Below are positions 1 to 19,724 of a stretch of 45,360 bases of DNA, piece after piece. Numbering within the stretch: the stretch's first letter is position 1; each line of letters starts with the position of its first letter. Under the pieces are notes generated by a model. The model searched no databases and was not told the DNA's origin. It was given only the letters and a program-made list of their open reading frames with translations. Source of the stretch: an uncultured Nitrososphaerales archaeon. Lineage in GTDB: Archaea > Thermoproteota > Nitrososphaeria > Nitrososphaerales > JACAEJ01. The position numbers and the translations under genes were made by a program. The stretch spans positions 1-45,360 of the forward strand of contig CALLJF010000033.1 of the NCBI GenBank assembly GCA_938091495.1. The letters are read 5' to 3'.

Positions 1-139
1 TCAAGCATGGATAGTAATCATCAAAGCCATCAATCCTATTCTAGATACTGAATGGTTCTCTCTTGAACCAAGACATCCCTTCGAGTCCTAAGAGGAAAAG
101 ATCTGACCATCAAGTCAAAATGATGCTAATTTAACACCG
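1..139 (+). repeat. Long inverted-repeat copy A
   Basis: This stretch matches the reverse complement of 18692-18821 almost base for base. The two differ by a few substitutions and by a short divergent segment around 75-100. The match may continue left of the window. One frame reads a peptide end with the core DTEWFSLEPRH and then a stop, but identity also covers bases after that stop, so this is DNA-level duplication rather than only protein similarity. It contains a small hairpin (TGGTTC, loop, GAACCA). No transposase is seen next to it. Identity is unknown; a small non-autonomous element or a duplicated gene end are both possible. Confidence 0.75.
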
Positions 140-157
140 CCGCGCTAAGAGACGAAA

Positions 158-183
158 AGTTTATAATTACCAAAGGGTAATTA
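158..183 (+). promoter_or_regulatory. Probable promoter and operator of the regulator-CODH/ACS operon
   Basis: A TATA-like stretch (TTTATAATTA, about 160-169) lies about 26-30 bases before the expected transcription start, which would fall only a few bases before the ATG at 195. It overlaps a perfect inverted repeat: arms TAATTACC (164-171) and GGTAATTA (176-183) with a 4-base spacer. A dimeric winged-helix protein bound here would block TATA-binding protein, so the neighbouring regulator probably represses its own operon. The sequence is seen directly; the regulatory role is inferred. Confidence 0.6.
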
Positions 184-194
184 CTATTTAAAAA

Positions 195-521
195 ATGTCG
201 CAAGGTGGAGTTTTAGAAAAAACGAAGAACTACAGTACTGCTGCTACTATGTTCAAGGTTCTAAGCAACATGAATAGGCTTAGGATAATAACGTGCTTGG
301 AGAAAGAATCTTGTTCTTTTGGAGAACTTTTGAAAGAATTAGCCATAAATCCGAAAGTCCTTAACGACCATCTCAACATTTTGATTGCTAACAAGCTCGT
401 TGCAAAATCTTATCCCTATAGAGTGTACGCATTAACTCCAGTAGGTCGTGTAATCAAACAAGGATTAGACGCCTTCAATGGCTATATTACAAAGATAGCT
501 TATGCTATTAAGGAGGAGTAA
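195..521 (+). CDS. ArsR-like winged-helix transcriptional regulator
   Basis: A 108-residue protein with one winged helix-turn-helix domain. Residues 17-40 form the first helices (TMFKVLSNMNRLRIITCL, the usual ArsR/MarR opening). A recognition helix sits near residues 50-65 (NPKVLNDHLNIL), and a beta wing near 70-80. It is the first gene of the CODH/ACS cluster. The Shine-Dalgarno sequence of cdhA (AGGAGGAG, 511-518) lies inside its last codons, so the two are co-transcribed. No clear metal-binding Cys pair of the ArsR type is visible: the two cysteines (CLEKESC) flank the second helix and might sense redox or metal, but that is speculation. Likely role is control of the carbonyl branch through the palindrome at 164-183. 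Confidence 0.8.
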   Translation: MSQGGVLEKTKNYSTAATMFKVLSNMNRLRIITCLEKESCSFGELLKELAINPKVLNDHLNILIANKLVAKSYPYRVYALTPVGRVIKQGLDAFNGYITKIAYAIKEE

Positions 522-526
522 CAAAG

Positions 527-2857
527 GTGACAACAAAGCTATCCATCAACGAATTAGAGTCAAGTTTTGCCAAGATTAAAGGGCTGGAGCTACTTATAGG
601 AAAAATAGTTGAGGAAGAATGGGATGAGATTGTCGGTCCTACCCCTTATCCATCTATAACTGATTTAAGAACTTGGGATCATCGCCTCCTCCAGAGATAT
701 GAACCTTTTTACTCTCCTCTCTGTGATATGTGCTGTCTTTGCACTTTTGGAAAATGTGATTTGACTAAAGGAAAGAAGGGCTCTTGTGGTATAGACATCA
801 GAAGCCAGCAAGGAAAGATAGTTTTAATTGCTTGTCTTATGGGCGCAGCATGCCATGCTACTCATGCCCGTCATATCGTCAATTATTTGATTGAAAAGAA
901 AGGTCGAGACTACCCTATTCATCTTGGGGAAGAAATCGAACTCGAAGCCCCTCTAATTCGCTTGGTTGCTGGTATTAAACCTAAGAAACTTGGCGATCTT
1001 GAAGAAGTTCTTGATTATATTGAACGACAAATAACTCACCTTCTTTCAGCAACAGCTACAGGGCAAGAGGAAAGTTACATAGACTTTGAATCAAAAGCCT
1101 TGCATGCAGGTATGGTGGATAACGTTGCTCTGGAAGTGGCAGATATCGCTCAAATCTCAGCACTAAGATTTCCCAAAGGAGATCCCGATGCCCCTCTTGT
1201 AGATCTAGGAATGGGTGTAATTGATAAGACTAAGCCTGTAATACTGTGCGTTGGACATAACGTTGCTCCAGGTTCAGAAGTAATAAATTATCTTGAGAAG
1301 TCAGGCATTTATGGCTCTGTCGAAGTTGCTGGCATATGCTGTACAGCCCATGACCTAACTAGATACTCTACTGGTGCAAAGATAGTAGGCCCTCTATCAA
1401 GGCAACTGATCTTCGTTAGATCTGGGGTAGCAGATGTTATAATCCTTGATCAAGAGTGTATTAGAACAGACATAATAGACGAGGCTAAGAAGGTTGGAAC
1501 AAGGGTTATCACTACCATAGACCAAGTCTGTGCAGGGCTTCCAGATATGACGAAGAGCCCTATCGAATCTATAATAAAAGAACTTGTATCAGGGAGCGTT
1601 CCTGCAGTTCTTATACACGATCCAGCAAAGGCTGGCGAAGTGGCTGTCAAGGTAGCTTTAGAGATCGCTCCTAACAGAAGAGCAAGAATTGTCTCAGATG
1701 AACAAGAAGTTCTTGATGCAATTTTAAGGTGCAAAGATTGTGGACGTTGTAGAAGGAACTGCCCCATAGATTTACCCATAAATGAAGCAGTCTACGCTTC
1801 TCATGAGAAGAATTTCGATTTATTGGCTGAAATTTATAATCAATGCTTGTTATGTGGTAGATGTGAGAGTGAGTGCCCTGAGCACATACCCATAGTCTCT
1901 GCGATAAGAGTAGCAGCCATGGAAAAGATAAGGAATGAGAAGTATAAGATAAGGTCAGGAAGAGGGCCCATAAAAGATACTGAAATTAGAAAGGTTGGAA
2001 GACCCATAGTAATGGGAGAGATACCGGGGGTAATAGCTTTTGTAGGTTGCGCAAATTACCCAAATGGCAATAAGGAATTAGTAGAGATGGCTGATGAATT
2101 TGCGAAGAGAAGATACATAGTTGTTGCTTCAGGCTGTGCAGCCATGGATATTGCCCGCTATAAAGATGAGGATGGCCAAACTTTATATGAAAAATACGCA
2201 GGAGATTTTGACGCAGGTTGTATTCTTAACACAGGTTCATGTGTATCTAACGCCCATATAATAGGCGCCGCTGTAAAAATTGCTAATATATTTGCGAATA
2301 GAAAGTTGAGAGGAAACTTTGAGGAGATAGCAGACTATATCTTAAACAGAATAGGTGCAGTAGCCATAGCCTGGGGAGCTCAGCATCAGAAAGCAGCCTC
2401 AATAGCAACAGGTGCAAATAGACTAGGCATACCAGTAATTTTAGGTCCTCAAGGAGTTAAGTATCGTAGAGCTTACCTTGGAAGGGCAGATAAGAAGGAA
2501 AACTGGATTGTCTATAATGCAAGGACAGGCGAAAAAGTTTATGCTGGACCTGCTCCTGAGCATCTGCTATACGTTACAGAATCAAAGGAAGAAGCCATTG
2601 TAACTGCAGCGAGGCTTGTAATGAGACCGAACGACACAAACAAAGGTAGAATGATCAAACTTTCACATTATATAGACCTTCATCAGAAACTTTATGGTAT
2701 ACTCCCAGAGGATCTTCATCTATTCGTTAGGACTGAGGCAGACCTACCTTTAACTATGAAAGATCAACTGTTAAAAATGCTTAAAAAAAGAGGCTGGGAA
2801 CCTATGGAGCTTCCAGACCCTACACTATTAGAAAGACAGATTATTAGGAGGGAGTAA
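527..2857 (+). CDS. cdhA: CODH/ACS complex alpha subunit (carbon monoxide dehydrogenase)
   Basis: Catalyses reversible CO2 reduction to CO in the archaeal acetyl-CoA decarbonylase/synthase complex. At 776 residues it has the length expected for CdhA. Cysteines at 66, 69, 70, 72, 77 and 87 (CDMCCLC...) match the B/D cluster region. Two ferredoxin-type motifs occupy about 402-455 (CKDCGRCRRNCP and CLLCGRCESECP), a feature of the archaeal alpha subunit and not of bacterial CooS. C-cluster regions are recognisable as GHNVAPGSE, DQECIRTD, GCANYPNGN, SGCAAMD and NTGSCVSNAH. The start is GTG with a strong Shine-Dalgarno sequence (AGGAGGAG) 8 bases upstream. cdhB begins 2 bases after the stop. Identification is secure. 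Confidence 0.96.
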   Translation: MTTKLSINELESSFAKIKGLELLIGKIVEEEWDEIVGPTPYPSITDLRTWDHRLLQRYEPFYSPLCDMCCLCTFGKCDLTKGKKGSCGIDIRSQQGKIVLIACLMGAACHATHARHIVNYLIEKKGRDYPIHLGEEIELEAPLIRLVAGIKPKKLGDLEEVLDYIERQITHLLSATATGQEESYIDFESKALHAGMVDNVALEVADIAQISALRFPKGDPDAPLVDLGMGVIDKTKPVILCVGHNVAPGSEVINYLEKSGIYGSVEVAGICCTAHDLTRYSTGAKIVGPLSRQLIFVRSGVADVIILDQECIRTDIIDEAKKVGTRVITTIDQVCAGLPDMTKSPIESIIKELVSGSVPAVLIHDPAKAGEVAVKVALEIAPNRRARIVSDEQEVLDAILRCKDCGRCRRNCPIDLPINEAVYASHEKNFDLLAEIYNQCLLCGRCESECPEHIPIVSAIRVAAMEKIRNEKYKIRSGRGPIKDTEIRKVGRPIVMGEIPGVIAFVGCANYPNGNKELVEMADEFAKRRYIVVASGCAAMDIARYKDEDGQTLYEKYAGDFDAGCILNTGSCVSNAHIIGAAVKIANIFANRKLRGNFEEIADYILNRIGAVAIAWGAQHQKAASIATGANRLGIPVILGPQGVKYRRAYLGRADKKENWIVYNARTGEKVYAGPAPEHLLYVTESKEEAIVTAARLVMRPNDTNKGRMIKLSHYIDLHQKLYGILPEDLHLFVRTEADLPLTMKDQLLKMLKKRGWEPMELPDPTLLERQIIRRE

Positions 2858-2859
2858 AA

Positions 2860-3399
2860 ATGTCAGCAACACCATGGCAAATAGGAGACGTACCAGGTCC
2901 AAAGCAAGCTCACATCCTAAGACCGGAGGTGTTTCCGAAAATAGTCAAGACTTTGAAAAGGCCTTTGATAGTAGTAGGGAGCAGAAAGGAAGTTTCAGAA
3001 GACAAAGATATAGCAAACAATATAGTAATAATGGCTAAATCAATGAACTCGCCCTTGGTCGTCTCTCCCAGTGTTTTCAAGAACTTCATGAAATTTAAAG
3101 ACGTAAAAGTAGTGTGCATGGGCATCGAAGATTTGGTGAACCATCTAAAAGAGAAAGAATGGAAAGGCTTTGATGATAAGGGAAATTATGACTCTATTCT
3201 ATTCGTTGGAGGCGTATACTATTTTCAATCTCAAATGCTTTCTACGCTAAAACATTTTGCCCCTCATTTGAAGACTTTTTCAATGGATAGATTCTATCAT
3301 CCGAATGCAGAATTCTCTTTCGAGAATATGAGCGAAGTTAGATGGGTGCAAGAATTCAGGGGCATGGTTGAAACGATAAAATCATCTTCAGTTAGTTGA
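2860..3399 (+). CDS. cdhB: CODH/ACS complex epsilon subunit
   Basis: A 179-residue protein with the size and pattern of the small epsilon subunit that pairs with CdhA in an alpha2-epsilon2 unit; a role in electron transfer has been proposed for it. The DHS-like Rossmann fold is suggested by hydrophobic strands followed by loops (RPLIVVGSRKE near 34-45, SILFVGGVYY near 108-117). The C-terminus ends with the family-like RFYHPNAEFSFENM region. It has no iron-sulfur motif, as expected. It lies between cdhA (2-base gap) and cdhC (10-base gap) in the usual archaeal order, and GGAGGGAG precedes the ATG. Confidence 0.92.
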   Translation: MSATPWQIGDVPGPKQAHILRPEVFPKIVKTLKRPLIVVGSRKEVSEDKDIANNIVIMAKSMNSPLVVSPSVFKNFMKFKDVKVVCMGIEDLVNHLKEKEWKGFDDKGNYDSILFVGGVYYFQSQMLSTLKHFAPHLKTFSMDRFYHPNAEFSFENMSEVRWVQEFRGMVETIKSSSVS

Positions 3400-3409
3400 G
3401 GCGATATAA

Positions 3410-4849
3410 ATGGTTGACAAATATGATGAATTTAGTGAAAAAAGCGGGATAACAGGGCTTGAGAGGCCTGAATTTCCTGTTGATGTTGGAGAGATGTATG
3501 AGGGGGAAAGAATTCGTAAGCCAGATATGTATTTAGAGTTTGGTGGCATGAACGTTAATAAGAAATGGGAGTTAGTCCTGACAAGACCTAAGGATCAATT
3601 AGAAGATGGAAAAATTACGATAATAGGCCCTGATTTATCAGAAATGACTCCCGGGGGCAGCTATCCTATAGGGATATTGGTGGAAGTGGCTGGTGATAAG
3701 GTGGAGAAGGATTTAGAAGGAGTTTTGGAGAGAAAGGTTCACTACTTTACAAACTACATCGATGGAGTTATGCACCTCAATCAAAGATATGATATTTGGA
3801 TAAGAATCAGCAAAAGAGCCTATCAGAAAGGTTTGAATTCCTTAGTCTGGATCGGAAAAATTCTTGCATGGCTCTATAAATCTAGTTTCCCTGTTATAGA
3901 AAAGATACAGATAACCATTTACACAGAAAAGGCAAAAGTTGAAGAGTTATTTCCTACAGCTATGGATACATGGAGTAAAAGGGATGATAGAGCAAGAACC
4001 TTGAAGGATGAGGAAGTCAACGAATTTTATACATGCGCTATGTGCCAGTCTTTCGCACCTAGCCATACGTGTGTCATAACTCCAAACAGAATTGGCTTAT
4101 GTGGATCCGTAAGCTGGTTCGATGCTAGAGCTGCTTACAACATAGACCCCAATGGTCCCAACTTCCCAATTCCTAAAGGCGAATGCTTAGACCCTATAAA
4201 AGGTATTTATGAAGGTATAAATAAAGTGGTTCAAGAGAAGTCTTTAGGTACTATAAAATCCATTTCGCTTTATAGCATGTTCGACAATCCTCACACTTCT
4301 TGTGGTTGCTTTGAAGGTATAGCCTTCTACATACCTGAAGTTGATGGAATAGGCATCGTGCATCGTGATTTTAAGGGGCAAACTGTTAACGGCCTAACCT
4401 TCTCATCCATGGCAGGGCATACAAGCGGAGGGACTCAGAATCCCGGATTTAATGGAATTGCTATAGAATATTTGAGATCATCGAAATTCCTTCAAGCCGA
4501 TGGAGGGTGGGAGAGAGTTGTCTGGGTGCCCTCTGAAATCAAAGAAAGGGTAAAAGATTCCATACCTAAACATATTTTTGACAAAGTAGCCACTGAAGTT
4601 GAATGCAAAACCATAGGCGAGTTGAAAGAGTTTCTAAAGAGCAGGGAACATCCTGTAGTGAGTCGTTGGAAGGTTGAGGAAGTTAAAGAAGTTCCTAAAG
4701 AAGAAGTTAAAGAAGAGGCACCAGAGGTTGTTTTGCCAACCCAACTCCCTACTGGCATTGAGATACCAACCCAAGGTGGAATAAGGATAATTCTAAAGAA
4801 TGTCAAGATAACAGCAGAGAAGGTCATTATAAAACGCGAAAAGAGTTAG
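3410..4849 (+). CDS. cdhC: CODH/ACS complex beta subunit (acetyl-CoA synthase)
   Basis: Joins CO, a corrinoid-bound methyl group and CoA to acetyl-CoA at the Ni-Ni-[4Fe-4S] A cluster. The cluster cysteines are visible: C209 and C212 (YTCAMCQSF) and C298 and C300 (TSCGCFEG). Conserved stretches ITPNRIGLCGSVSWFDA and MAGHTSGGTQNPGF surround them. The protein is 479 residues, the short archaeal form that lacks the N-terminal CO-tunnel domain of bacterial AcsB. The C-terminus carries a Lys/Glu-rich linker (about 418-435) and a short terminal module (GGIRIILKNVKITAEKV), as in other archaeal CdhC proteins. It follows cdhB by 10 bases, and cdhD follows about 50 bases later. Confidence 0.95.
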   Translation: MVDKYDEFSEKSGITGLERPEFPVDVGEMYEGERIRKPDMYLEFGGMNVNKKWELVLTRPKDQLEDGKITIIGPDLSEMTPGGSYPIGILVEVAGDKVEKDLEGVLERKVHYFTNYIDGVMHLNQRYDIWIRISKRAYQKGLNSLVWIGKILAWLYKSSFPVIEKIQITIYTEKAKVEELFPTAMDTWSKRDDRARTLKDEEVNEFYTCAMCQSFAPSHTCVITPNRIGLCGSVSWFDARAAYNIDPNGPNFPIPKGECLDPIKGIYEGINKVVQEKSLGTIKSISLYSMFDNPHTSCGCFEGIAFYIPEVDGIGIVHRDFKGQTVNGLTFSSMAGHTSGGTQNPGFNGIAIEYLRSSKFLQADGGWERVVWVPSEIKERVKDSIPKHIFDKVATEVECKTIGELKEFLKSREHPVVSRWKVEEVKEVPKEEVKEEAPEVVLPTQLPTGIEIPTQGGIRIILKNVKITAEKVIIKREKS

Positions 4850-4900: not shown

Positions 4901-6124
4901 ATGGCAGTCTTCTTTGGAGATGATTATGAGGAAAAGGAAGAGGCAAAGGCTCTGATAAAGAGCCTGGCCAAGCTCATAGAAAAGCTTGGCGATTTGGAGA
5001 TAGAGAATGTCGAGATAAGGGCTGAAGAGCTTACTCTTATCCTTCAACCTATGATAGGAGTCATGGCACAGGCACCTCAATTACTACCAAAGGTTGAAAA
5101 AGCGATAGAAACTCTACTCAAAACGGAGTTCTCACCACCTATAGAAACCTATCCGGGACAGATCGCTGAAGTTCAAATAGGAGCTACAAGGTCTGATGGC
5201 GGCTCTAGGAAAAAAGTCGTAAGGATAGGCGGGGAGAAGACTATGCCATTCTATAGTTTTGAGGCTTTGAACCCAAATAGGCTTGCCTTTGCTATGGATG
5301 TATTTGATATGCCTGTAGCACTGGCAAAATCAGTAAAACAACACTTTGAAGATGTTATGCATGATCCTGCTGATTGGGCGAAGAGATGCGTCGAAGATTT
5401 TGGCGCTGAGATTATTTCTCTTAACCTAATAAGCACTGATCCATTGATAAAAGACACATCTACGAAGGATGCTGCTAAGACTGTTGAAAGAGTTTTGCAG
5501 GCTATAGATGTACCATTAATAATAGGAGGATCGGGTAACAAGGCTAAAGATCCATATGTTCTTGAGGCTGCTGCTGAGGTGGCAAGTGGTGAAAGATGCG
5601 TCCTTAATTCTGCCAATGTGGATAATGATTACAAAAGGATAGCAAGAGCAGCTAAGAAGTATGGCCATATAGTCGTAGCTTTCACTCCCATGGATATTAA
5701 CAACCAGAAGAAGCTCAATAGGCTTCTTCTTGATGAGGGCTTGTCGAAGGAGCAAATAATAATCGATCCAACTACTGCAGCTCTTGGCTACGGTCTTGAC
5801 TACACTCTTAGCCTAATGGAAAGGATTAAGCTTGCAGGCCTTCTTGGCGATTCTGATTTACAGATGCCCATACTTGCTTCAACGAGTAACAGTTGGGGTG
5901 CCAGAGAAGCTTGGATGAAGTCTGAAGAGTGGGGGCCAAGAGAGTACAGAGGACCCCTTTGGGAAACTGTGACAACGATTACGGCTATGATGGCTGGAGG
6001 CGACCTTTTCATGTTGAGTCATCCTGCAACTGTTAGAGTTATAAAGGGATTAATGGAGGATTTGTACGGAGAAGTCGATACAGATCAAAGGATTCAAGAC
6101 TGGATAACCGATATAGGGATGTGA
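4901..6124 (+). CDS. cdhD: CODH/ACS complex delta subunit (corrinoid protein small subunit)
   Basis: Partner of CdhE in the corrinoid iron-sulfur protein that carries methyl groups between tetrahydropterin and the A cluster. The 407-residue protein has the family's N-terminal helical segment and then a TIM-barrel region related to pterin-binding methyltransferases. Family stretches include GGEKTMPFYSFEA (about 109-121), MHDPADWAKRCVEDFGAEII, IIGGSGNKAKDP and the C-terminal SWGAREAWMKSEEWGPREYR. It lies 4 bases before cdhE. The roughly 50-base gap from cdhC is AT-rich and could hold a ribosome site but shows no strong promoter. Confidence 0.94.
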   Translation: MAVFFGDDYEEKEEAKALIKSLAKLIEKLGDLEIENVEIRAEELTLILQPMIGVMAQAPQLLPKVEKAIETLLKTEFSPPIETYPGQIAEVQIGATRSDGGSRKKVVRIGGEKTMPFYSFEALNPNRLAFAMDVFDMPVALAKSVKQHFEDVMHDPADWAKRCVEDFGAEIISLNLISTDPLIKDTSTKDAAKTVERVLQAIDVPLIIGGSGNKAKDPYVLEAAAEVASGERCVLNSANVDNDYKRIARAAKKYGHIVVAFTPMDINNQKKLNRLLLDEGLSKEQIIIDPTTAALGYGLDYTLSLMERIKLAGLLGDSDLQMPILASTSNSWGAREAWMKSEEWGPREYRGPLWETVTTITAMMAGGDLFMLSHPATVRVIKGLMEDLYGEVDTDQRIQDWITDIGM

Positions 6125-6128
6125 AATC

Positions 6129-7535
6129 ATGCCAGAAAAAGTGACCTTACTCTCAGTCTATCGTTTCCTTCCTCAGACGAACTGTGGAGAGTGTGGAGAA
6201 CCTAATTGTATGGCCTTCGCCTCTAAGCTTTTGGAGAGAAAGTTTACTCCAGAAAATTGTCCTCCGTTGAAGAAGCCGAAGTATAAAGAACAAATGGCTA
6301 AACTAATCGAGCTTATAGCCCCTCCTATAAAAGAAGTAACGATAGGCACAGGGAATAGCATAGTAAAGATAGGAGGTAAAGAAGTCATGTATAGGCATGA
6401 GCTTACTTATCATAACCCTACAGCAATAGCAATAGATGTAAGTGATACGATGGATGATGGCAAAATTGTTGAGACATGTAAAGCCATAGAAAATATCTCT
6501 TTAGTTAGAATAGGGGAAACTCTCAAGTTAAATATGGTAGCTGTTAGATGCGCATCAAAGGATCCTGATAGATTCTCTTATGTGACATCTCTTGTGGCAA
6601 GAAGTTGTAATCTTCCTTTAATTCTCTGCTCTTTTGATCCTAAGAGTCTTAAGGCTGCTTTAGAAAAAGGGCAAGTAGCCAACAAAAGACCATTGTTATA
6701 TGCTGTATCAGAGGAGAACTGGAGAGAAGTTTCAGAGTTGGCTAAGCAGTATGATTGCCCAGTAGTTATCTTTGCGCCCAACAATTTAACGCTATTAAAA
6801 TCCTTAATCAAGACTTTACAGGCTATAGGAATTCGTGATATAGTCATGGACCCAGGCTCATACACAGAAGGCAAACTTCTAAAGGATAGCATTAACAACT
6901 TGGTCATGATAAGAAGGGCAGCCATACAAAGAGGAGACAAAGACCTAGGCTATCCTATCATGGCTGTGCCAGCGATCATATGGATGGGAGAGAAGCAAGA
7001 CCCCATAACTGCATCATATAAAGAAGCCTATATCGCATCTTTATTCATGAATAGATATGCAGACTTGCTCATAATGCACACCTTAGAAACTTGGGCCTTA
7101 CTTCCAGTGCTTACTCTAAGGCAGAATATATACACCGACCCAAGAAAGCCAGTATCAGTGGAACCAGGCCTTCGCATTATAGGTAAGCCGGACGAGAAAT
7201 CACCAGTATTTCTCACGACAAATTTTGCGCTAACATACTTCACAGTAGCCAACGACCTTGAATCTGCGGGGATAAACTGCTTCCTGCTAGTATTGAATAC
7301 TGAAGGACTAGCTGTAGAGGTGTCAGTGGCAGGAGGACAGTTCAATTCGTCTAATGTGAGAGATCTATTTTTATCTTCAGGTGTAGAAAAGATGGTGAAG
7401 CACAATAAACTTATCATCCCTGGCATGGCGGCAAGGCTGAAAGGGGATATCGAGGACTCAACTAACTGGGAAGTGATAGTAGGCCCTAGGGATTCATCAC
7501 AGATAAAGAGCTTTCTTACAAAATATTGGGCTTAA
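6129..7535 (+). CDS. cdhE: CODH/ACS complex gamma subunit (corrinoid protein large subunit)
   Basis: Large subunit of the corrinoid iron-sulfur methyl carrier. The N-terminal [4Fe-4S] domain has C19, C22, C27 and C44 (TNCGECGEPNC ... ENCPPL), the same spacing as known CdhE/AcsC proteins; this cluster reactivates Co(II) corrinoid. A TIM-barrel methyltransferase-like domain follows. The C-terminal part (about 340-468, with LTTNFALTYFTVANDLE and PGMAARLKGDIED) is the corrinoid-binding region. At 468 residues it is a normal length. It starts 4 bases after cdhD and ends 10 bases before the ferredoxin gene, so it is fully inside the operon. Confidence 0.95.
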   Translation: MPEKVTLLSVYRFLPQTNCGECGEPNCMAFASKLLERKFTPENCPPLKKPKYKEQMAKLIELIAPPIKEVTIGTGNSIVKIGGKEVMYRHELTYHNPTAIAIDVSDTMDDGKIVETCKAIENISLVRIGETLKLNMVAVRCASKDPDRFSYVTSLVARSCNLPLILCSFDPKSLKAALEKGQVANKRPLLYAVSEENWREVSELAKQYDCPVVIFAPNNLTLLKSLIKTLQAIGIRDIVMDPGSYTEGKLLKDSINNLVMIRRAAIQRGDKDLGYPIMAVPAIIWMGEKQDPITASYKEAYIASLFMNRYADLLIMHTLETWALLPVLTLRQNIYTDPRKPVSVEPGLRIIGKPDEKSPVFLTTNFALTYFTVANDLESAGINCFLLVLNTEGLAVEVSVAGGQFNSSNVRDLFLSSGVEKMVKHNKLIIPGMAARLKGDIEDSTNWEVIVGPRDSSQIKSFLTKYWA

Positions 7536-7545
7536 TGGGTGAATC

Positions 7546-7959
7546 ATGAGGTTCCATATAGAAGTTGTTCATCCTGAAAGATGTATTGGCTGCTATAGCT
7601 GTGTTTACGCATGTTCAAGACATCTATTCAATATTATAGACCCATCTAAAGTAGCAGTATTCGTGAGAGTTAACGGAACTCTTGCAAACCCTTTCACAGT
7701 CATAACTTGTAGATTTTGTAAGAATCCAGAATGTGCTTTAGTCTGTCCTAGAGGCGCTTTACAGCCTTTGCCAGAAGGAGGAATAACTTTGATAGCATCG
7801 AAATGTGAAGGCTGCAAGACCTTTGATTGTATAAATGCATGCATGATTAGAGCACTGGCTTTAGATAAAATAACGAATCTTCCAATAATATGTGATAGAT
7901 GTGGAGATTGTGCCAAATATTGCCCTCATAACGTTTTCAAGTATGAGGAGATGAAATGA
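7546..7959 (+). CDS. Four-cluster ferredoxin, electron partner of the adjacent AOR
   Basis: A 137-residue polyferredoxin with four four-cysteine motifs: CIGCYSCVYAC near the start, CRFCKNPECALVCP, CEGCKTFDCINAC, and CDRCGDCAKYCP near the end. The layout resembles HycB/DmsB-type electron-transfer subunits and the small subunits encoded beside some aldehyde ferredoxin oxidoreductases. It has no signal peptide and is cytoplasmic. It lies between cdhE and the AOR gene, so it may pass electrons between AOR, CODH and the soluble ferredoxin pool. Its TGA stop is followed at once, in the same frame, by the TTG start of the AOR gene. Confidence 0.85.
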   Translation: MRFHIEVVHPERCIGCYSCVYACSRHLFNIIDPSKVAVFVRVNGTLANPFTVITCRFCKNPECALVCPRGALQPLPEGGITLIASKCEGCKTFDCINACMIRALALDKITNLPIICDRCGDCAKYCPHNVFKYEEMK

Positions 7960-9762
7960 TTGCCAATTAGAATTCTTTATGTCAATCTCTCAGAAAGATC
8001 GAGCAGAGTAGTAGATAGACCAGATTTATTCTCTAAATATCTCGGTGGCGCAGGCATAGCTTCAAAACTTCTCCTTGAAGAAGTTAGACCAGGCATAGAC
8101 CCCTTCTCTCCCGAGACACCGATAATCTTCGCAGCAGGTTATATGACTGGGGTTTTTCCATGCATGGTCAAAGCAATAGCTATGTTCAAGTCTCCTTTGA
8201 CAAAAAACCTAGGAGAATCCCATTCTGGAGGCCACTTTGCAAGCGCTCTAAGGTTTGCTGGTTATGATGCATTAGTTATTCATGGAGCATCTGAGCATCC
8301 TATCATTATAAAGATAATAGATGATGAAGTAAAAGTTAAAATGGCTGATTCCCTCTGGGGGCTATCACCTTTAGATGTTGAAAAGGCCCTTAGAGAATGT
8401 AGTTACGAAGGAATGCAGAGTGTAATAAGCTGTGGAAAGGCTGGAGAGAATCTTGTATGTTACAGCAATGTGATAGTTGATAGATTTCATCATTTTGGAA
8501 GACTAGGTCTTGGAGCTATATTTGGAAGCAAGAAGCTGAAAGCCATCTCGATCCTGGGAAGAAAAGGGATCTCATTAAAGAACCCCTTGGCTGTGAAGGA
8601 GGTTTATGAAAAATTGCATCATAAAGTTGTTATAAGCGATGAAATGTCAAAATATCATAATCTCGGGACATCGGCTAATATGCTTGAGCTAAACGAGTTG
8701 GGAGCTTTGCCCACCCATAATTTTAAGGAATCAAGGTTCAAGGATGCTGAGAGAATATCTGGAGAAACTATGGCTGAATCCTTATTGAGAAGAAAGATTT
8801 CATGCCCTGGATGTCCTATAGCATGCATACACTTGGCAGGATTGAAGACTAGCTTTGCCCCTGAGCATGAAAGAGGTAAAAAGGAGATATTTCATGAAGA
8901 AGTGTTAGTCCCATACAATTATGAGGCTATGTATGCATTAGGAAACAACCTTCTAATAAAGGACAAAAGGGATTTGATTCTTCTCATATATCGTTGTGAA
9001 AGTCTTGGCTTAGACGCTATGATGATGGGAACAGTTTTGGCATGGGTTACAGAGGCTTTTGAAGAAGGTAGAATAACCCTTGATGAAACTCTCGGAATAA
9101 AACCTGCATGGGGAGACGCTGAAGCATATATTAAAATAATTGATAATACAGTGGAAATGAAGAATAAATTTTATGCCAAGTTAGCCCAAGGTGTAGTAGC
9201 AGCTTCTGAAAAGTATGGTGGAAGAGAATATGCCATGGCATTAGGTAACAATGGTATGGCTGGATACATAACTGGTTATGGGGCCATATTAGGACCTTTA
9301 GTAGGAGCGAGGCACTCACATCTTAGCAACTCTGGATATAGTATAGATCAGAAGATTATGAATAAGCCTATAAGTATTGAGCAGATGGTTGACTTTTTGA
9401 TAGACCAAGAGGACTGGCTTTACGTTCTTTTTTCTTTAGGAGCTTGCTACTTTGCCAGAAGGATCTACAGCGAGGAAGTTGTCTGTGAAGCTCTTAAAGC
9501 TCTAGGCATAGATAAGACCCAGGATGAATTGATGAAGATGGGCAAAGAAATTTTTCATAATTTATATAAATTTAAGGTTAGAGAAGGTTTTGAGTTAAGT
9601 GAGCAAAATATACCTAAAAGAATCTTTGAAGTTCAAACCCCTCATGGCAAGCTTGAATTTGAGAAGATTAAAAGCATGATAGACTATTACATAAAGAAGA
9701 GAGAAAAGGAAGGTCTTCATTTAAAACCTGAGGAGAAGGCTTTGAAGGAGCTTCTTAAATGA
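7960..9762 (+). CDS. Tungsten-dependent aldehyde:ferredoxin oxidoreductase
   Basis: Oxidises aldehydes to carboxylic acids, or reduces acids when ferredoxin is strongly reduced, using a tungstopterin and one [4Fe-4S] cluster. At 600 residues it matches the AOR family (about 600-620). The N-terminal domain has YLGGAGIASKLL and the pterin-binding region GESHSGGHFASALRFAGYDA (about 86-105). Cluster ligands are CPGCPIAC (about 285-292) and a later Cys in SLGACYFARR. The start is TTG directly after the ferredoxin stop; no ATG/GTG alternative fits, and the protein aligns from its first residues with the AOR N-terminus (ILYVNL). Its place at the end of the CODH/ACS operon suggests acetaldehyde/acetate chemistry, but the substrate cannot be told from sequence. 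Confidence 0.92.
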   Translation: MPIRILYVNLSERSSRVVDRPDLFSKYLGGAGIASKLLLEEVRPGIDPFSPETPIIFAAGYMTGVFPCMVKAIAMFKSPLTKNLGESHSGGHFASALRFAGYDALVIHGASEHPIIIKIIDDEVKVKMADSLWGLSPLDVEKALRECSYEGMQSVISCGKAGENLVCYSNVIVDRFHHFGRLGLGAIFGSKKLKAISILGRKGISLKNPLAVKEVYEKLHHKVVISDEMSKYHNLGTSANMLELNELGALPTHNFKESRFKDAERISGETMAESLLRRKISCPGCPIACIHLAGLKTSFAPEHERGKKEIFHEEVLVPYNYEAMYALGNNLLIKDKRDLILLIYRCESLGLDAMMMGTVLAWVTEAFEEGRITLDETLGIKPAWGDAEAYIKIIDNTVEMKNKFYAKLAQGVVAASEKYGGREYAMALGNNGMAGYITGYGAILGPLVGARHSHLSNSGYSIDQKIMNKPISIEQMVDFLIDQEDWLYVLFSLGACYFARRIYSEEVVCEALKALGIDKTQDELMKMGKEIFHNLYKFKVREGFELSEQNIPKRIFEVQTPHGKLEFEKIKSMIDYYIKKREKEGLHLKPEEKALKELLK

Positions 9763-9780: not shown

Positions 9781-9811
9781 AACTTCTTTTACTAGATAAA
9801 TAGTGATAGTT

Positions 9812-10153
9812 TTGTGTGAATTCAAAGTCATCAACAAAGAAGCCAAGAAAGAGCGAAAAGTTGGAGAGGATATAGTCTATGCGAAATTTAGCGAAGATCA
9901 CGTTTTGCTCAGAGATATCCTTGGAGGAGCCACTAAAATTCATGGAGCCATAATAGAGGAAGTGGACGTAAATTCAGAAATCTTAAAATTGGCAAGTTCA
10001 CCTATAATTATAAAAATAAATAAGTTCTTGAATGCTTGTCAAAAGTGTGATTCTGAGAAAGTTTACGATAAAAAATTGGAAGCTCTTTGGGAGGATGTAA
10101 AAGCTTCCGGCGACGAGGCTATTCGTACGCTCTGGAAGAAGTATGGAAAGTGA
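9812..10153 (+). CDS. CooT-like nickel-binding protein with C-terminal extension
   Basis: The first ~60 residues resemble the CooT family, small dimeric Ni(II)-binding proteins linked to CODH maturation: VGEDIVYAKF, VLLRDILGG, HGAIIEEVDV and EILKLAS follow the CooT pattern. A GTG at 9803 gives MIVLC..., but the in-frame TTG at 9812 gives Met-Cys at the N-terminus, and Cys2 is the known nickel ligand in CooT, so 9812 is preferred. CooT is normally 61-66 residues. This protein has about 50 more at the C-terminus, including CQKC and a charged helix. It overlaps the first CooC gene by 11 bases, which ties it to nickel insertion. Assignment is by pattern and context, not by alignment. Confidence 0.65.
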   Translation: MCEFKVINKEAKKERKVGEDIVYAKFSEDHVLLRDILGGATKIHGAIIEEVDVNSEILKLASSPIIIKINKFLNACQKCDSEKVYDKKLEALWEDVKASGDEAIRTLWKKYGK

Positions 10154-19700: not shown

Positions 19701-19724
19701 TTTTTAACATAATTATGTTAAAAA
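19701..19724. promoter_or_regulatory. Perfect 24-bp palindrome, candidate operator of the purine operon
   Basis: The half-site TTTTTAACATAA is followed directly by its exact reverse complement TTATGTTAAAAA, with no spacer. It lies right after the stop of the HTH-PRTase gene and about 20 bases before a TATA-like run (ATATTTATATAAAC, about 19743-19756). It could be the regulator's binding site, or the terminator hairpin of the regulator gene; the absence of a loop and of a T-tract favours a protein-binding site. Confidence 0.55.

Follow-up and report, generated by a model that had tools for sequence, protein, structure and literature searches.

A putative operon-encoded ArsR-type repressor at the head of the CODH/ACS operon in Nitrososphaeria

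Few carbon-fixing enzymes are as old as CODH/ACS and, to our knowledge, little has been learned about how uncultured archaea control it. Does the small winged-helix protein encoded directly in front of the CODH/ACS genes of an uncultured Nitrososphaerales archaeon control these genes, and itself, through a palindromic site in their promoter? We addressed this question in a 45,360-nt stretch of DNA (the window), which comes from a genome of 1.39 Mb that is 96.6% complete (G000), and in its relatives. We describe the promoter anatomy, the gene order, the conservation and near-uniqueness of the site, and the parallel loss of gene and site. Our preferred reading, to which we give a probability of roughly three in four (0.77), is that the protein encoded at 195-521 is a dedicated, operon-encoded repressor, which would bind this site next to the presumed transcription start and so repress both the CODH/ACS operon and its own gene.

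The features of the locus are as follows:

154-159, plus strand: BRE-like purine-rich element GAAAAG (from sequence and the aligned promoter block; also present at the regulator remnants of G005 and G006)
160-167, plus strand: probable TATA box TTTATAAT (from sequence; kept in G001 and G003)
164-183, plus strand: inverted repeat TAATTACC-AAAG-GGTAATTA, putative operator (exact in G001, one mismatch in G003)
177-184, plus strand: self-complementary octamer GTAATTAC, invariant core of the putative operator (from conservation across regulator promoters)
195-521, plus strand: operon-opening gene for an ArsR-type winged-helix regulator of 108 aa; its mRNA probably has little or no leader (Pfam, orthologs)
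511-518, plus strand: Shine-Dalgarno-like AGGAGGAG ahead of cdhA (from sequence)
527-2857, plus strand: cdhA, CODH/ACS alpha subunit (TIGR00314, 1187.5 bits, cut-off 781.3)
2860-3399, plus strand: cdhB, epsilon subunit (TIGR00315)
3410-4849, plus strand: cdhC, ACS beta subunit (TIGR00316)
4901-6124, plus strand: cdhD, corrinoid protein delta subunit (TIGR00381)
6129-7535, plus strand: cdhE, corrinoid protein gamma subunit (NF003195)
7546-7959, plus strand: ferredoxin-like 4Fe-4S protein (Fer4 Pfam models)
7960-9762, plus strand: aldehyde ferredoxin oxidoreductase, AOR (AFOR_N and AFOR_C)
9803-10153, plus strand: CooT-like CODH accessory protein (PF10133, 33.5 bits, cut-off 27)

As the original prediction held, an ArsR-type open reading frame opens the operon and is followed by cdhA-B-C-D-E, all five of which score above their NCBIfam cut-offs. 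The regulator gene stands first, behind its own putative site, which is the layout of an operon-encoded autorepressor. The gene run from the regulator to the CooT-like gene, with intergenic gaps of 0 to 51 nt, is consistent with a single transcript. Ferredoxin and AOR directly follow cdhE (7546-9762), an order common to families f1 (that of the window), f4 and f13. Elsewhere in the window, a 24-bp perfect palindrome, TTTTTAACATAATTATGTTAAAAA (19701-19724), lies directly 3' of a 234-aa open reading frame and about 98 nt ahead of the next one. No Rfam element matched in window positions 1-3000.

Re-reading of the promoter confirmed the predicted exact 8-bp inverted repeat, with TAATTACC at 164-171 and GGTAATTA at 176-183 around a 4-bp spacer, as well as its overlap with the presumed TATA box, since the left arm shares positions with TTTATAAT. 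What we take to be the BRE and the TATA box are so labeled from general knowledge of archaeal promoters. Archaeal transcription usually starts 22-27 nt beyond the centre of the TATA box. The start would thus be expected at about 186-191, shortly before the ATG at 195, probably leaving the regulator mRNA without a leader or with a very short one; upstream of this ATG, no Shine-Dalgarno-like stretch was seen. The DNA upstream resembles that of G001 and G003 only from position 152 onwards, and positions 1-151 differ in G000, through either a rearrangement or an assembly end.

How unusual is the palindrome? Counting overlapping occurrences, we found 17 exact 8-bp inverted repeats with spacers of 0-8 in the window, where shuffled sequence gave 10.75 on average (range 2-19); when the 100 bp upstream were shuffled, 71 of 4000 trials contained at least one such repeat. 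By this shuffle test, the palindrome on its own is not rarer than chance in an AT-rich window. Moreover, TAATTA is itself palindromic, so any two copies automatically give an inverted repeat. The palindrome alone is therefore weak evidence, and the case rests on conservation.

To follow the regulator through the genomes, which are metagenome bins, we used a profile built from seven orthologs. It matched 7 of 400 genomes of the class (E<=1e-12), with one copy in each, always heading the cdh or cdhC operon. The carriers belong to two families: f1, with G000, G001 and G002 (genus g1) and G003 (g2), and f13, with G018, G031 and G040. CdhC was found in 17 of the same 400 genomes, leaving 10 CdhC genomes without the regulator. 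The order in f1 is regulator-cdhA-B-C-D-E-ferredoxin-AOR, with CooT next in G000, G001 and G002 (the stretch of G003 examined stops inside AOR). The f13 operon reads regulator-cdhC-D-E-ferredoxin-AOR, and cdhA-B are located elsewhere; G018 also carries CooT and two CooC-like ATPases (the latter by our own sequence reading), while the contigs of G031 and G040 end at AOR and inside cdhC, respectively. Three further, weak profile matches among 398 genomes of the phylum (1.4e-12 to 8.1e-11), all in long frames, were rejected as unrelated or unclear, with no cdh gene among the open reading frames listed.

Same-genus relatives of the source organism include the MAGs Nitrososphaeria archaeon JZ2_bin.220247 and DRTY6_bin.138. 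The first is reported as an mcr carrier (PMC10833072, in excerpt), and a Thaumarchaeota MAG, JZ-2 bin_220, was given the name Ca. Methylarchaeum tengchongensis (PMC6783470, in excerpt); we infer that JZ2_bin.220247 and JZ-2 bin_220 are one organism. We found mcrA in G001, which has the regulator, and in G004, G005 and G006, which lack it, and did not find it in G000, G002 or G003. As mcrA occurs both with and without the regulator and is absent from G000, the two are not coupled. G000 and G001 share a genus and have Cdh proteins that are 95-98% identical, yet of these two only G001 has mcrA, by loss or because of bin incompleteness.

Conservation of the site wherever the regulator-cdh order is kept was a check set beforehand. 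The octamer at 177-184 passed it in 7 of 7 promoters; the perfect 8-bp repeat, by contrast, is not strictly kept. Exact GTAATTAC starts 13-18 nt ahead of the start codon in all seven regulator promoters (the start codon of G040 is TTG) and occurs in none of the 200-nt regions upstream of 19 cdhA or cdhC genes, drawn from 12 genomes, that have no regulator next to them, although these 7 and 19 promoters are not 26 independent cases, because the seven stem from two families. The same 19 regions held no one-mismatch GTAATTAC within 80 nt; the scoring left aside G025 and some contig-end copies of cdhA. Mismatches in the inverted repeat number zero in G000 and G001, one in G003, two in G040, and three in G002 and G018. 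Its left arm reads TAATTACC in G000, G001 and G003, TTATTACT in G002, and TAGTTATC in G018 and G040; in G031 it could not be made out. As judged from these alignments, the conserved unit is the right-hand octamer GTAATTAC and not the perfect inverted repeat. We take GTAATTAC as the core because its final C (184) is invariant though it lies outside the repeat, and we read the left copy as an auxiliary half that would have to serve the TATA box too.

The surroundings of the octamer are also constrained. A 31-column block from the BRE to the octamer is common to six of the seven promoters, with G031 three bases longer. Since BRE/TATA and octamer are equally far apart in all six, while the spacing from octamer to start codon varies, the octamer is positioned relative to transcription rather than translation. 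G000 and G003 are 90% identical over 39 nt of promoter, compared with 69% within the coding sequence of the regulator and 51% over the next 100 nt upstream of the promoter.

Family f13 has other elements as well. A GGTATATA-type element stands ahead of the TATA region in second-copy cdhA promoters and in the G018 regulator promoter (L054, L055, L107, L108, L109), and in the latter it forms TATGGTAT-ATAC-ATACCATA. A different palindrome, ATTTTAG-TAG-CTAAAAT, is conserved about 1-25 nt ahead of the stand-alone first copy of cdhA in G018 and G031 (L095, L096); a different regulator may bind there.

We then considered how specific the site is within each genome. With zero or one mismatch, the 20-bp site occurs once per genome in G000, G001 and G003, always at this promoter. 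The promoter site of G002 has three mismatches, with a two-mismatch site elsewhere in that genome, and the G031 promoter is absent from the 20-bp matches with up to three mismatches. At that threshold, counts were equal to or below those of a reversed control pattern in six of seven genomes (five against three in G040). Sites at this level are about as common as the control, and weak further targets are therefore not visible. We read the surroundings of 18 sites at the three-mismatch level, nine in G000, five in G001, three in G003 and one in G002, several of them inside genes, setting aside the remaining sites of G002 and those of G018, G031 and G040. These 18 sites revealed no shared further target except one syntenic site in the near-twins G000 (L120) and G001 (L125). 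One three-mismatch site of G003 lies 86 nt ahead of a gene that we read as hydrogenase small subunit-like (L127); it was not found in the other genomes.

A search of the seven genomes for the octamer with an ATG 4-12 nt behind it gave 24 rows, close to what the control gave. Six of the seven yielded the regulator start, the exception being G040 with its TTG start, and just one further site was shared, in identical form, by G000 and G001. Such a near-unique site points to a single-target regulator, and weak sites may exist besides.

The sister genus g3, in the same family as the window, carries cdhC-D-E-ferredoxin-AOR without the regulator, and has cdhA-B elsewhere. About 100-300 nt ahead of cdhC in G005 and G006 (L080, L081), we found the first 25-30 or so regulator-like codons, followed by the first 24 or so cdhA-like codons. 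The E values are 0.021 and 0.001 for the cdhA remnant and 0.043 and 0.064 for the regulator remnant (profile domain) in G005 and G006, respectively; the regulator remnants, weak alone, are suggested by their position, order and exact spacing. Both remnant promoters keep GAAAAGCTTATTAT, with BRE and TATA identical in the two. The octamer remnant, 17 nt past GAAAAG as in the window and outside the 200 nt scanned upstream of the cdh genes, has one mismatch in G005 and four in G006. With BRE and TATA intact and the octamer decayed, this suggests that the site decays after loss of the regulator while the core promoter persists. G004 showed no clear remnant of the regulator. A CdhC+D+E tree of 16 genomes groups f13, f4 and f1 together. 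Presence of the regulator in f13 and part of f1 and its absence from f4 require losses or transfer: the regulator may be ancestral to all three families, with losses in f4 and g3, or it may have been transferred.

The window protein matches HTH_20 (PF12840) with 31.3 bits (gathering cut-off 27) and HTH_5/ArsR (PF01022) with 28.5 (cut-off 22), and both Pfam families match all seven orthologs (E<=0.01). The recognition-helix stretch, NPKVL(N/R)DHLN, is identical in the seven except for one residue (N/R). In a PDB profile search, the closest solved sequences were ArsR-type regulators, including HlyU, NolR and archaeal members (E 0.00013-0.0087). An AlphaFold2 model from a three-sequence alignment had a mean pLDDT of 48.4, too low for use. 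The metal-responsive mechanism that had been envisaged was not borne out: the seven orthologs have no invariant Cys, their sole invariant His (H59) sits with the invariant D58 inside the recognition helix, and the NCBIfam metalloregulator model NF033788 gives 35.8 bits, below its cut-off of 55. On the same grounds, with the conserved Cys/His/Asp ligands absent, we did not class the protein as an ArsR/SmtB metal sensor. Nor does it belong with the Phr heat-shock repressors (NF053602, 17.4 bits against a cut-off of 320) or with MsvR, the redox regulator of methanogens (NF053755, 12.8 against 220).

Our model proposes that a dimer of the regulator would bind 164-184, with GTAATTAC at 177-184 as the essential part and the left half overlapping the TATA box. 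From there, between TATA and the expected start, it would deny TBP, RNA polymerase or both access to the promoter. Release of the repressor would come from a metabolic or redox signal, rather than through a conserved metal site, and would induce the whole set of cdhA-B-C-D-E, ferredoxin, AOR and the CooT-like gene at once.

Could the protein instead be an activator or a dual regulator, which binds the octamer and helps recruit basal factors? The conservation data fit any direct binding equally well, and the top PDB sequence matches include HlyU, whose deposition calls it a transcription activator. We nevertheless regard this as unlikely. The site lies downstream of the TATA box and overlaps it, where, as a matter of general knowledge, bound proteins usually block, and Phr, an archaeal ArsR-type repressor, binds over its transcription start (PMC6316755, in excerpt). 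A shade less probable still is that another, unlinked regulator binds the octamer and the ArsR-type gene acts elsewhere, as octamer and gene occur together (7/7), are absent together (0/19) and decay together in G005 and G006. A third alternative, that the palindrome arose by chance or belongs to the core promoter that these archaea use in general, agrees with its not exceeding chance as such, but is very improbable given that octamer-ATG pairs stay at control level genome-wide, with the regulator start the sole gene shared, bar the one G000/G001 site, and that the site is conserved across two families.

How does a local repressor of CODH/ACS compare with known systems? ArsR/SmtB metalloregulators typically have an autoregulated operon layout, like that of the window operon. 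One of them, presumably CzrA, is the weak profile match 1r1u (E 0.0086), and the group shares the Pfam ArsR/HTH_20 domain; the window protein differs in lacking conserved metal ligands and falling below the metalloregulator cut-off. The archaeal ArsR-family structure 2p4w, which we take to be Phr, is also a profile match (E 0.00037). Phr is an archaeal ArsR-type winged helix like the window protein, but the 2p4w chain has 202 residues with an extra C-terminal part, and Phr targets heat-shock genes. In Pyrococcus furiosus, this ArsR-family heat-shock repressor covers a 29-bp site over the transcription start (PMC6316755, in excerpt).

The original prediction had described dedicated regulators of archaeal CODH/ACS as little known. 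This needs qualifying, because Thermococcus has two known regulators of a CODH cluster, EnfR and CorQR, although there the CODH is hydrogenogenic. EnfR (TON_1525) of Thermococcus onnurineus is, like our candidate, an archaeal repressor of a CODH gene cluster, and binds as a dimer to a 36-bp pseudo-palindrome in the codh promoter (PMC10570040, in excerpt). It differs in being Tfx-family-like, with an 'eighth note' fold, and not ArsR (PMC10570040 and PMC4791640, in excerpt), and in controlling a hydrogenogenic CODH cluster and not CODH/ACS. It would also be encoded outside its target operon, as TON_1525 is far from the codh genes TON_1018-1023. CorQR of the same species, likewise an archaeal CODH cluster regulator, is a CO-responsive activator, with no CODH/ACS link in the excerpts of its description (PMC4791640). 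MreA of Methanosarcina acetivorans, also an archaeal regulator, is described in excerpt as a global regulator of acetate and methanogenesis genes, and not as local within a cdh operon (PMC12918732). Among open-licence papers and titles, in a search that was not exhaustive, we found no regulator that is both dedicated to a CODH/ACS operon and encoded inside it.

Thus, regulator and site are most likely an ordinary kind of local repressor, new in its target and lineage. We see an even chance that they represent the first case of a regulator family confined to this lineage and to a single target, CODH/ACS in Nitrososphaeria, one that would answer to a non-metal signal of the pathway (for example acetyl-CoA, the state of the C1 carrier, or redox) and would have been shed on operon rearrangement in the mcr-bearing sister genus. 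Regulator, putative site and target all lie within about 10 kb, and the relatives provide a natural series of losses. This system could reveal the signal that tells hot-spring archaea to run the Wood-Ljungdahl pathway.
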